Positions 7,730 through 16,767 of a stretch of DNA of 36,676 nt are shown piece by piece. Within the stretch, counting starts at the first letter, position 1. Each line of letters starts with the position of its first letter. The notes beneath the pieces are model-generated. The model had not been told where the DNA came from, searched no databases, and saw nothing but the letters and a program-made list of their open reading frames with translations. Location of the stretch: contig SLGY01000131.1 in NCBI GenBank assembly GCA_007136425.1, positions 1-36,676 on the forward strand. The letters run 5' to 3'. This DNA is from Kiritimatiellia bacterium. Its GTDB lineage: Bacteria; Verrucomicrobiota; Kiritimatiellia; SLAD01. The position numbers and the translations under genes are program-made.

Positions 7730-10700
7730 CTACACGAAATAATCCTGCAACGCCCGAACATCCCAATCCTGTTCCCGGACATGGCGTATGGCGGCCAGTG
7801 TAGCGCGGGCGCCGGGCTCGGTCGTGATGATCGGGATGCCGCGCAGGATCGTGTCCGACCGGATTTTAACCTCGTCCACGCGCGCCACCGGTCCGCTGGG
7901 CGTGTTGATGATCATGCGTACCCGGCCTTCCCGCATCAGATCCACGATATTGGGATGCTTGCGCTCCGCCAGTTTGTTCAGGATGGTTACTTTCAGTCCC
8001 GCTTCCTGCAGGGCGGCCCCGGTACCTTTAGTGGAGAGGATCTCAAAACCCAGTTCGGCCAACTGCTTGCCGATGTCCACAATCCACGGTTTGTCGGCAT
8101 CCTTGGCGCTGAGAAAGATCGGTCCTTCCGTCGGCAGATGCTGGCCGGCGGCGATCTGGCTCTTCCAATAGGCGGCTTCGAACGTGTAATCCATGCCCAT
8201 GACTTCTCCAGTGGACTTCATTTCGGGACCGAGAATCGGGTCCACACCGGAAAAGCGGTTGAACGGGAAGACGGCTTCCTTGACCGCAAACCAGGTCATC
8301 GCCTTGGGCGGTTGCGGCGTACCGATATCGTCAAAAGTCTGACCGACAGCGATACGGGCGGCGAGTTTCGCCAGGGGCACCCCGGTGGCCTTGCTGACGT
8401 ACGGGACCGTGCGGGAAGCGCGCGGATTGATTTCAATGACGTACAATTCATCGTTCACCACCGCCCATTGCGTGTTCATGAGCCCCTTGACATTCAGTTC
8501 CAGGGCAATAGCGGTTACCGCTTCCTTGATCCGCGCGACAATGTCCGGGGTCAAGCTGTGCGGGGGGACCACGCAGGCACTGTCACCGGAATGCACGCCG
8601 GCGGCCTCGACGTGTTGCATTACGCCGCCGACATAAACCTGTTGCCCGTCGGACACGCAGTCGACATCGACCTCGATCGCGCCTTCGAGGTAGCGGTCGA
8701 TGAGCACGGGGAAGCCCGGGCTGATCTTCAATGCCGCGCGGACAAACGGTTCGATGTCTTCGTCTTTGTACGCCACCATCATGGCCCGTCCGCCGAGCAC
8801 ATAAGACGGGCGCACCATGACTGGATAACCGATTCGCCGGGCGATGGTCAGCGCTTCTTCCACAGTCAGGGCCGTATCGCTCTCCGGCTGTTTGAGGCCG
8901 AGCTTGTCCAGCAACGCGCGGCAATGTTTCCGGTCCTCGGCGCGATCAATGCTTTCCGGCGAGGTCCCCAGAATCGGCACGCCCGCGTGCATCAGCGGTA
9001 CGGCCAGATTCAGAGGTGTCTGGCCGCCCATCTGGACGATGACGCCCAGCGCCCCTTCATTTTCGTAGATGTTCATCACATCCTCGAAGGTCAACGGCTC
9101 GAAATAGAGTTTGTCCGCCGTATCGTAATCCGTGCTGACCGTTTCGGGATTGCTGTTGACCATGATGGTCTCGTAACCCAATTCGCGCAGCGCCATGACG
9201 GTATGTACACAACAGTAATCGAATTCGATGCCCTGGCCGATTCGATTGGGACCGCTCCCCAGAATGATGACCTTCTTGCGCGACGACGGTCGTGATTCGT
9301 CCCGGTCGGCGTAACTCGAATAATAATAGGGCGTATACGCTTCAAATTCGCCGGCACAAGTGTCCACCAACCGATACACCGGCTTCACGCCCGCCGCGAT
9401 GCGTTCGCGGCGTACATCCGTTTCCGACATCTCGGCGCCGCGTAAGGCGGCAATCTGCCGATCCGAGAACCCGGATTTCTTCGCTTCGCGCAAGAGCGCG
9501 GCGTCCAGGGCGGGGGCGTCTGCGAGCCGTTGCTCAATTTCCACGATCTGTTGAAACTGATCGATATACCACGGATCAATCCCGGTACGTTCAGCGATGC
9601 GCTCAATGGAGTATCCGTGTTTCAACGCGTATTTGACATTGAAATGCCTGTCCGTATCCGTGCGGGCCAATTCCGTCTCGATTTCCGGTTTGTTCACCAG
9701 ATCCTCCGCGCGCAAATCCATTCCGGCGACGCCGATTTCCAGGCCGCGAAACGCCTTCTGCACGGCTTCCCGGAAATTGCGGCCAATGGCCATGGTTTCA
9801 CCCACGGACTTCATGCTGACGCCCAGTTTAGGATCGGCGCCGGGAAACTTTTCGAAGGCGAACCGCGGCACCTTGACCACGCAATAATCGATCGTCGGCT
9901 CGAAACTTGCCGGGGTATCGCGCGTGATGTCGTTGGGCAATTCGTCCAGCGTATAACCGACGGCCAGTTTCGCGGCGATCTTCGCAATGGGATAGCCAGT
10001 GGCTTTGCTGGCCAACGCCGAACTGCGGGATACGCGCGGGTTCATTTCAATGACCACCATGCGGCCCGTTTCCGGATGGACCGCGAACTGCACATTGGAA
10101 CCGCCGGTATCTACGCCGATCTCGCGCAGGACCTTGATGCTCCAATCGCGCATCCGTTGGTATTCCGCGTCCGTCAAGGTCTGCGTGGGGGCCACGGTGA
10201 TGCTGTCGCCCGTATGGACGCCCATCGGGTCGAGGTTCTCGATAGAACAGACGATGATACAATTGTCGTTCCGGTCCCGAACGACTTCCATCTCGTATTC
10301 CTTCCAGCCGAGCGCCGATTCTTCGAGCAACACTTCGTGCACGCGGCTGGCCTTCAAGCCGCCCCCGGCAATCCGTTCCAGCTCCTCCTCGTCATAGGCC
10401 GTGCCCCCGCCGGTACCCCCGAGGGTGTAGCTCGGGCGGACGATAATCGGATACCCGATATCTTGCGCGACCGCTTTGGCGCGCTCGATGCTGTTGACCC
10501 GTTCGCTTTTCAGGCATTCGAGGCCGGCGCGCGTCATTGCGGCCTTGAACAGTTCCCGGTCCTCGGCGCATTGGATGACCTCGACCTTCGCGCCGATCAA
10601 CTCCACGCCGAACTCTTCCAGTGTTCCCGCTTCCGCCACTTCCAGGGCCGTGTTCAACCCGGTCTGGCCGCCGAGCGTCGGCAGCAGCGCGTCGGGCCGT

Positions 10701-10942
10701 TCCCGGGCGATGATCTTCCGCACCGCTTCCGCCGTGATCGGCTCCACATACGTGCGATCCGCCATCTCCGGGTCGGTCATGATCGTGGCGGGATTGCTGT
10801 TGATCAGGATCACCTCGTATCCCTCTTCGCGCAGGGCCTTGCAGGCTTGCGTTCCGGAATAATCGAATTCGCAGGCCTGGCCGATGACAATCGGGCCTGA
10901 TCCAATGAGCATGATTTTCTTGATGTCTGTTCGTTTAGGCAT
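7730..10942 (-). CDS. carB: carbamoyl-phosphate synthase large subunit
   Basis: CarB makes carbamoyl phosphate from bicarbonate, ATP and ammonia delivered by CarA, feeding arginine and pyrimidine synthesis. The 1070-residue protein has the usual full length and duplicated layout. The first synthetase half begins [23 protein letters not shown], with ATP-grasp residues around [10 protein letters not shown]. An oligomerisation region follows. The second half begins at [20 protein letters not shown], with [11 protein letters not shown]. The last 140 or so residues form the methylglyoxal-synthase-like regulatory domain ([24 protein letters not shown]). I start at the ATG at 10942, giving MPKRTDIKK; an upstream in-frame extension reads through the palindrome array and has no CarB homology. 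It is downstream of carA and guaA on the same strand but separated from guaA by about 197 bases that include the array, so it may have its own control. Confidence 0.97.
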
Positions 10943-10987
10943 GGATGGATTTTCGATGTGCGATTGTTGATATTCGATTGGAACAGT

Positions 10988-11097
10988 TTCCAATCGTTGG
11001 AAGTGAAAAAGGCCTGTTTTTCCAATCGTTGGAAAAAAACGCGCCCATTTTTCCAATCATTGGAAACAAAAACGGGTCACTTTTCCTATCGTTGGAA
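10988..11097. repeat. array of four 15-bp palindromes, TTCCAA-TCG-TTGGAA, at 31-32 bp period
   Basis: Copies lie at 10988-11002 and 11020-11034 (both TTCCAATCGTTGGAA), 11051-11065 (TTCCAATCATTGGAA) and 11083-11097 (TTCCTATCGTTGGAA). Start-to-start distances are 32, 31 and 32 bp, three helical turns. The 16-17 bp spacers also share a pattern: A-run, GC-rich centre, T-run. A half site, GATTGGAA, follows at 10976-10983. The array fills the guaA-carB gap, directly upstream of carB. Each copy is a dyad that could bind a dimeric regulator or form a 6-bp RNA hairpin. No such array occurs elsewhere in the window. Confidence 0.9.
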
Positions 11098-11139
11098 GTT
11101 CGTCCTGCCGTTCTTTGCGAGCTGCTCTTCAATTCTGCC

Positions 11140-12684
11140 TCATTCCCACTCAATGGTTGCCGGTGGTTTGGAGCTGATATCGTACACGACGCGGTTGATC
11201 CCCCGGACCTCGTTGATGATCCGGTTCGAAATGGCGCCGAGCGTGTCGTAGGGGAGCCGGAACCAGTCGGCGGTCATGCCGTCCAGGCTTTGCACGGCGC
11301 GTACGGCGGCGACGTGTTCGTAGGTCCGTTCGTCGCCCATGACCCCGACGGTTTGCACCGGAAGCAGGACGGCGAAGGCCTGCCATATATCCCGGTATGT
11401 CGGTAGTTTCGCAATCTCTTCCTGCACACGGAGATCCGCTTCCTGCAGCAGCGCAACGCGTTCGCGCGTGACCTCGCCCAGAATACGCACGGCCAGGCCC
11501 GGTCCAGGAAAAGGTTGGCGATCCACGATTTCGTCCGGCACGCCGAGTTCGCGACCGAGGACCCGGACCTCGTCCTTAAAGAGTTCGCGAAGGGGTTCGA
11601 GTAATTCGAACGCGAGATCGTCGGGCAATCCGCCGACATTGTGATGGCTCTTGATCGTCACCGAAGGTCCGCCGATGGGCGACCGGCTTTCAATGACGTC
11701 GGGATACAAAGTGCCCTGGGCAAGAAATTTCATCGGTCCGATCGCGCGGGCGTGTTCCGTGAATACCTCGATGAATGTGCCGCCGATGATCTTGCGTTTC
11801 TGTTCCGGATCGAGCACGCCGGCGAGCCGGTCGAGGAAGAGGTCCTGCGCGCGCGCCACGCGCAGGTCCATTCCGAAATGTTCCCCGAAGGTGTGTTCGA
11901 CTTGTTCCGCTTCCCCGTGGCGCAACAAGCCGTTATCCACGAATACGCAATGCAGTTGATCGCCGATGGCCCGATGAATCAGGGCGGCGGCGATGGAGGA
12001 ATCCACACCGCCGCTCAGGCCGCATAAGACATGATCATTGCCGACGCGCTCACGGATAGCCTCGACGTTTTCGGCGATGAATTGCGACATGGTCCAATCG
12101 CCCGCACAGCCGCACACGTCGAAGAGATAACGCCGTAATATATCCGTGCCATGAGCGGTGTGTGCGACTTCCGGATGAAATTGCAGCCCGTAGAAGCCGC
12201 GTTCCGGATCGGCCATGGCCGTGACCGGGCAGGACGGCGTGTTGGCGAGCGCGCGAAAACCGGACGGGAGCTGGCCGACCTGATCGCCATGACTCATCCA
12301 AACGGTGAGTTCGGCGGGCAGATCGTTAAACAGCCGGTTCTGTTCGATGACCGTGATGGCGGCCCGCCCGTATTCGCGTTTCGCGCCGGGCGCAACGCGT
12401 CCACCGAGTTTGGCGGCCATCAATTGCATGCCGTAACAGATGCCGAGCACCGGCAGGCCCAGGTCGAACAGGGCGGCATCGCAATCGGGCGCGCCGGCGG
12501 CCGTTGCGCTGGCCGGCCCGCCGGACAGGATCACGCCCTTCGGCGCCCGTGCGCGCAGGGTGTCCGCCGTTGTGTCGTGCCGCAGGATTTCGCAATAGAC
12601 CTGCTGCTCGCGTATGCGTCGGGCGATAAGCTGGCTGTATTGCGAGCCGAAATCCAGAACGGCAATCCAATCGTGGGCTTTCAT
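11140..12684 (-). CDS. guaA: GMP synthase (glutamine-hydrolysing)
   Basis: GuaA aminates XMP to GMP using glutamine-derived ammonia. The 514-residue protein has the two expected parts. The class I glutamine amidotransferase domain (about 1-195) has [14 protein letters not shown] at the N-terminus, the nucleophile C83 in GICYGMQ, and the His-x-Glu pair in QFHPEV. The ATP pyrophosphatase domain has the PP-loop GLSGGVDSS, followed by the dimerisation domain ending KPPATIEWE, the standard C-terminus. Length and termini are normal. It lies 42 bases downstream of carA on the same strand with GGAGGGG before its start, so the two probably share a transcript. Placing guaA between carA and carB is unusual; all three products depend on glutamine nitrogen. 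Confidence 0.97.
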
Positions 12685-16059: not shown

Positions 16060-16767
16060 ATGAGTGAAACGGCAAACGAACCGGCCACGCCCAACGCGTG
16101 CGTGGTGGTGCCCGCCTATAACGAAGCGCGACGCATCGGCGGCGTGGTGTCCGCCATACGCCATCATGTCCCCGATGTCTTTGTGGTCGACGACGGGTCC
16201 GATGATGATACGGCGACGGCGGCCGAAGCGGCCGGCGCGCAGGTGCTGCGTCAGGAGCGCAACCAGGGTAAGGGCGTGGCGCTGCAAACGGGGTTCCGAC
16301 ACGCTATGCAGGGCGCTTATGCGGTGGTGATTTCCATGGATGCGGACGGGCAGCATAATCCGGACGATATCCCGCGCTTTCTGAAGGCTTATGCGCGCAC
16401 GGGGATTCCGGTATTGTTGGGGAACCGAATGACGCACCTGCGGGAGATGCCCCTGCTGCGGCGCTGGACGAATCGCGTCATGAGCGCCATGATCAGTCGG
16501 GTGATGGGCCAGTATGTGCCGGACACACAATGCGGTTTCCGCCTTTTCCGATACGATGTGCTGCCTTTCTTGAATGCGGAATCGCATCGTTTCGCGGCGG
16601 AATCGGAGATGCTGTTGCATCTTTCGGATCGCGGGTTCCGTATAGATTCCGTTCGCATTTCAGTGATTTACCGGGACGAACAGAGCAAGATCCATCCCGT
16701 CCGCGATGCCGTGCGCTTTTTTCGGATGCTGCACCATTATCGCTCGAACCGAAGAGGTTTCTCCTGA
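16060..16767 (+). CDS. family 2 glycosyltransferase (polyprenyl-phosphate sugar synthase-like)
   Basis: This 235-residue cytoplasmic enzyme has a GT-A fold. It starts with CVVVPAYNEARRIGGVV (14-30), has the first nucleotide-binding aspartates in VVDDGSDDD (43-50), NQGKGVALQTGFRHAM (68-83) and the metal-binding DAD at 94-96 in SMDADGQHNPDD. The pattern matches dolichol/undecaprenyl-phosphate mannose or glucose synthases, but there is no C-terminal membrane domain. The sugar and acceptor cannot be read from the sequence. It follows lipA by 48 bases on the same strand and precedes hflK by 71 bases. It could supply the lipid-linked sugar that GT-C enzymes need; that link to the membrane protein at 5815-7695 is speculation. 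Confidence 0.88.
   Translation: MSETANEPATPNACVVVPAYNEARRIGGVVSAIRHHVPDVFVVDDGSDDDTATAAEAAGAQVLRQERNQGKGVALQTGFRHAMQGAYAVVISMDADGQHNPDDIPRFLKAYARTGIPVLLGNRMTHLREMPLLRRWTNRVMSAMISRVMGQYVPDTQCGFRLFRYDVLPFLNAESHRFAAESEMLLHLSDRGFRIDSVRISVIYRDEQSKIHPVRDAVRFFRMLHHYRSNRRGFS

Follow-up and report, generated by a model that had tools for sequence, protein, structure and literature searches.

Helically phased arrays of a 15-bp palindrome in Kiritimatiellae as putative binding sites of a homodimeric protein

Described systems and the array between guaA and carB

MatP, Noc, and SlmA are bound as dimers to short palindromic sites (matS, NBS, and SBS, respectively) that are scattered along the chromosome independently of promoters; these sites occur singly, in tens per genome, and are biased to part of the chromosome. 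A different arrangement is found at operators of Lrp/AsnC proteins (such as Ss-LrpB, BarR, and FL11), where dyad sites of 13–17 bp are clustered two or three helical turns apart and dimers sit on the same face of the DNA, which is wrapped around the oligomer; BarR uses four to five sites of 15 bp (PMC2995911, PMC10201364). REP/RAYT elements are hairpins of 20–40 bp tagged with GTAG or CGTC, and they are reported to be abundant in Opitutus terrae from Verrucomicrobia (PMC3733652).

The window analysed here (the whole stretch of 36,676 nucleotides) belongs to a genome of 2.6 Mb in 226 contigs (G000). It contains an array of palindromes within the 197-bp gap (10943–11139) between the stop codon of guaA at 11140 and the ATG of carB at 10942, both genes being on the minus strand:

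7730..10942, minus strand: carB (carbamoyl-phosphate synthase large chain), open reading frame with translation
10988..11002, no strand: palindrome 1, TTCCAATCGTTGGAA, exact match
11003..11019, no strand: spacer 1, 17 nt, GTGAAAAAGGCCTGTTT
11020..11034, no strand: palindrome 2, TTCCAATCGTTGGAA, exact match, step of 32 bp from palindrome 1
11035..11050, no strand: spacer 2, 16 nt, AAAAACGCGCCCATTT
11051..11065, no strand: palindrome 3, TTCCAATCATTGGAA, exact match, step of 31 bp from palindrome 2
11066..11082, no strand: spacer 3, 17 nt, ACAAAAACGGGTCACTT
11083..11097, no strand: palindrome 4, TTCCTATCGTTGGAA, match with one mismatch, step of 32 bp from palindrome 3
11140..12684, minus strand: guaA (GMP synthase), open reading frame with translation, on the far side of the gap

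A preliminary description had reported four palindromes at steps of 31–32 bp in this gap, separated by patterned A-run/T-run spacers. The regular steps are real, palindromes 1–3 are perfect, and only the fourth has to be corrected as imperfect; the spacers are indeed bordered by A-runs and T-runs, with GC toward the center. The array lies 45 bp from the carB ATG; orthologues of carB were found in 26 of 30 relatives, matching over most of a 400-aa query. When up to two mismatches were allowed, five palindrome matches were counted in the window irrespective of their spacing, compared with 1.1 expected. Just to the carB-facing side of palindrome 1, at 10978–10983, there is a lone TTGGAA half-site that does not share the array's phase.

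In comparison with Lrp/AsnC clusters, the Kiritimatiellae sites have the same geometry (15-bp palindromes at steps of 21–22 and 31–32 bp); however, the Lrp sites are degenerate promoter operators, whereas those considered here are near-perfect, number from tens to thousands, and are independent of promoters, and the Lrp protein of Kiritimatiellae has no conserved recognition helix. They resemble matS, NBS, and SBS in being short, palindromic, scattered over the chromosome, promoter-independent, and bound by a dimer (a putative one in Kiritimatiellae), but reach thousands of copies, are phased in most families, and are evenly scattered in one genome (G035). Like the REP/RAYT elements of a related lineage, they are numerous intergenic palindromes and sometimes form arrays, but they are not enriched in the REP tags and their spacing follows the helix.

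Distribution and helical phasing of the palindrome

Across the G000 genome, 58 exact copies of the palindrome were found, compared with 0 for a reversed control pattern, and a chance origin is therefore excluded. Nearly all of these copies are grouped in approximately 20 arrays of two to five, and hence the genome-wide search proposed in the preliminary description shows that the array is not unique. At least one copy is present in 127 of the 288 Kiritimatiellae genomes, whereas zero or one copy was found in genomes from other classes of the phylum. Copy numbers start at a few and include 793 in 2.1 Mb (G371), 853 in 2.5 Mb (G065), 1,339 (G012), and a maximum of 3,044 (G315); in the richest genomes, a site is met roughly every 2–6 kb. 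The mention of similar palindromes in Kiritimatiellota-type genomes, which had accompanied the suggestion of a lineage-specific element, is thus supported. That suggestion and the binding-site reading had been offered as alternatives; they are compatible, and both fit the array.

The palindrome can be abundant in one genome and nearly absent from another of the same genus (1,177 in G160 versus 3 in G050 and 4 in G087). When over-represented gapped palindromes were searched for without bias, TTCCA-N5-TGGAA ranked first or close to first in most carriers, and it was not found in G087 and G050. Among named records, those that contain arrays are nearly always Kiritimatiellae, either by label or by their match to such genomes. 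One array-bearing contig labelled Firmicutes bacterium ADurb.Bin467 (MWAC01000309.1, locus L023) is probably a misbinned Kiritimatiellae contig. A phage or plasmid origin was rejected, since no similar DNA was detected in phage and plasmid collections and only one phased pair was detected in 2.9 million viral contigs; that pair (L116, contig IMGVR_UViG_3300035698_006241) may come from a phage or provirus whose host is a carrier. Many contigs of metagenome-assembled genomes (e.g., C88 of G000 and C62, C162, and C268 of G302) terminate in or beside arrays. Metagenome assembly seems to be broken by the arrays, and the copies counted in such genomes may be too few. No published description of this or related palindromes and DNA motifs was found in the literature searched; the palindrome-array family is real and class-restricted, and apparently undescribed.

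Distances between neighboring palindromes (21–22, 31–32, 42, 53, 63, and 75 bp) are multiples of 10.5 bp. Nearest neighbors are found 20–22 bp (n = 25) and 30–33 bp (n = 404) apart, followed by 41–42, 53, 62–64, and 75–76 bp, and for a period of 10.5 bp the resultant length (vector strength) reaches 0.81 with the 28–36 bp class left out. Such clustering supports the earlier proposal that repeated dimers may bind along one face of the DNA. In arrays of G090 (L012, L046, L058, and L080), steps of 22 bp and 30–31 bp alternate, i.e., two and three helical turns are mixed. The CC/GG pairs of the palindrome are nearly invariant, and approximately 130 single changes that break an arm were counted versus 12 symmetric double changes (about tenfold). 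Because compensatory changes are so much rarer than breaking ones, the arms function as a DNA duplex rather than as RNA. Relative to each dyad, AT-rich positions are found at a distance of about one turn and GC-rich positions at about 1.5 turns, an alternation as expected with DNA that would be bent toward one face. A directional core (CGA on the sense strand of the gene) looked promising in G000 and failed when more genomes were included; among neighboring copies, the core has the same orientation in 202 cases and the opposite one in 165. Judged from these sequence statistics, the repeated unit is a duplex site of 15 bp with dyad symmetry, and its copies stand in helical phase.

Gene context, turnover, and competing explanations

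One competing explanation is that the arrays are operators, where dimers upstream of carB and other genes would repress or activate promoters as members of one regulon. Many arrays, including the one at carB, are indeed less than 100 bp from a start codon (genes were called with a simple codon-bias caller, and these distances are approximate). The guaA–carB gap also contains arrays in several genera of the family f1, as well as in f8 and f9 members: they are present in G325 (with reversed core orientation), G300, G115, and G314, with an altered motif in G243, and in the more distant G074, G309, and G056. In G243, carB and the array are separated by an additional stretch of about 300 bp (L234, contig C230, approximately 16237–16542).

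However, arrays show no promoter bias and are found in gaps of all three types (convergent, divergent, and tandem). Their density in convergent gaps is equal to or higher than that in divergent gaps in G065 and G012, f1 has 16 arrays in convergent versus 17 in divergent gaps, and orientation to genes in f1 is random (13 same, 19 opposite). The neighboring genes, named by reading their sequences, are diverse and unrelated housekeeping genes (rnpA, clpB, a topoisomerase VI B-like gene, asd, and carB), and no recurrent gene families were found beside arrays, on which ground a carB regulon was rejected. A link to carB is not supported. In addition, a consensus scan of the guaA–carB gap found no sigma-70-like promoter, copy numbers of up to thousands do not suit a regulon, and the sites of one genus (g10) are largely within genes. 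An operator function appears unlikely.

The arrays might instead represent a dispersed MITE- or REP-like repeat that spreads by copying, with the palindromes serving as recognition sites of a mobilising enzyme. Spacers in f1 share a directional consensus (identity 0.47 in the same orientation versus 0.32 when reversed), and therefore some spread by copying is possible there. Array positions turn over fast between species: only one of approximately 20 arrays in G243 coincides with an array locus in G300. In G000, one array exists as strain variants on two contigs and differs between them in its inner spacers. The motif has also been replaced genome-wide in G243, where TTTCCAYTCRATGGAAA occurs 90 times in 31-bp arrays and the usual palindrome only once, whereas its congeners G257, G300, and G320 have 0 copies of TTTCCAYTCRATGGAAA and 35–110 of the usual one. 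This switch suggests either that the binder has changed its specificity or that one copying family has taken the place of another.

On the other hand, palindromes in f4 and f8 are perfect and enriched in intergenic DNA (p ~1e-41 to 1e-55), while their spacers are unrelated beyond composition; since the likeness of spacers between arrays is no higher than in column-shuffled controls, these arrays did not arise by recent copying of a unit. No common flanks were found outside the palindromes. GTAG and CGTC tags are less frequent than expected by chance, with 9 and 27 instances, respectively, within 8 nt of 1,085 unique palindromes and about 42 expected for each. Perfect palindromes phased at two or three turns would not be needed for mobility, and singletons within genes of g10 occur in all reading frames. 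We consider it improbable that the family is such a dispersed repeat.

The G000 contigs mentioned above (C3 and C22, loci L117 and L120) have the same array locus at their ends with flanks approximately 99% identical, and two of the four inner spacers differ, a strain-level variation that point mutation does not explain. Several array loci of G243 and G300 have other stretches in common that are approximately 73% similar.

The g10 palindromes are mostly unphased singletons, many of them within genes and distributed over all three reading frames (G035 and G228, loci L152–L159 and L167–L169), in contrast to other families, where phased arrays lie between genes; phased weak partners of these singletons were sought and none was found. 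They would be explained if the palindrome were a chromosome-marking signal for a DNA-processing machine, with a density like that of Chi or DNA uptake sequences. The use of all frames, the density of sites in the richest genomes, and the Poisson-like scatter of sites along the G035 genome are consistent with this idea. However, half-sites alone are only slightly over-represented, Chi and DNA uptake signals are not palindromic and are not known to form helically phased arrays, which makes a marking function very unlikely. Finally, RNA hairpins or terminators can practically be dismissed: the array strand folds better than shuffled sequences (z = -3.1), as any set of palindromes would, but the invariant arms show no covariation, the inner stem position in G243 is often a non-complementary C/A pair, no terminator-like site was found by scanning the guaA–carB gap, no Rfam family matched above threshold, and arrays are present in both orientations to genes.

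Candidate binding proteins and an architectural reading

The explanation that we favor, with a probability of roughly 0.5, is that the array is a cluster of sites for a putative homodimeric protein of Kiritimatiellae whose role would be mainly architectural rather than that of a carB operator. Binding is strongly suggested by phasing and symmetry together; the architectural role of the complexes is a weaker suggestion. One dimer would occupy each palindrome, and adjacent dimers might contact each other and bend or wrap the DNA, aided by the alternating AT-rich and GC-rich stretches around each dyad. The resulting protein–DNA complexes could then shape chromosome structure, and the protein would be a sequence-specific nucleoid organiser. 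As for nucleoid-organising sites, the distribution is independent of promoters (similar numbers in convergent and divergent gaps, random orientation, and Poisson scatter in G035). The binding-site reading is also favored by the comparison of G302 with G000, in which three of four testable arrays were at the same place, their spacers diverged and their palindromes intact, by the arrays of other genomes in the guaA–carB gap, and by the motif replacement in G243.

Lrp/AsnC proteins (PF01037) are present in all 28 array carriers tested and also in most non-carriers. Two features of Lrp operators are thus found, the site geometry and an Lrp/AsnC protein in carriers, and a third, a conserved contacting helix, is not: the recognition helix of the single Lrp/AsnC protein varies widely among carriers while the motif is constant, and in G032 it has no basic residues. 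Because of this variable helix, the protein is a weak candidate binder. A very similar protein is also present in non-carriers of the same genus. Autoregulation by Lrp was rejected, as most carriers have no array at lrp. Of the two further DNA-binding families tested besides Lrp/AsnC, TetR proteins are absent from G257, G300, G371, and G163, and HTH_3 (XRE) proteins from G300; both were set aside as universal binders, subject to the possible incompleteness of these assemblies. The window itself contains a small HTH_3 (XRE-type) reading frame at 2816–2959.

Several observations count against the binding-site reading, including the lack of TetR and HTH_3 in some carriers together with the variable Lrp helix, the fast turnover of array positions seen between G243 and G300, the directional and loosely homologous spacers of f1, which plain binding sites would not need, and the mostly unphased g10 singletons with their frequent location within genes.

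If the architectural reading is carried further, it is possible, though we put it forward only tentatively, that Kiritimatiellae possess a sequence-specific chromatin system in which phased 15-bp palindromes at tens to thousands of loci allow a dimeric protein to wrap the intergenic DNA, and in which the protein and the specificity of its sites can shift together throughout a genome, as in G243. The motif switch in G243 makes such co-evolution of a protein with about ninety or more sites directly testable. No site family so abundant, regular, and lineage-bound was found in the literature searched. If its role is architectural, it would be a bacterial case of sequence-coded, helically phased DNA packaging on the scale of a whole genome.
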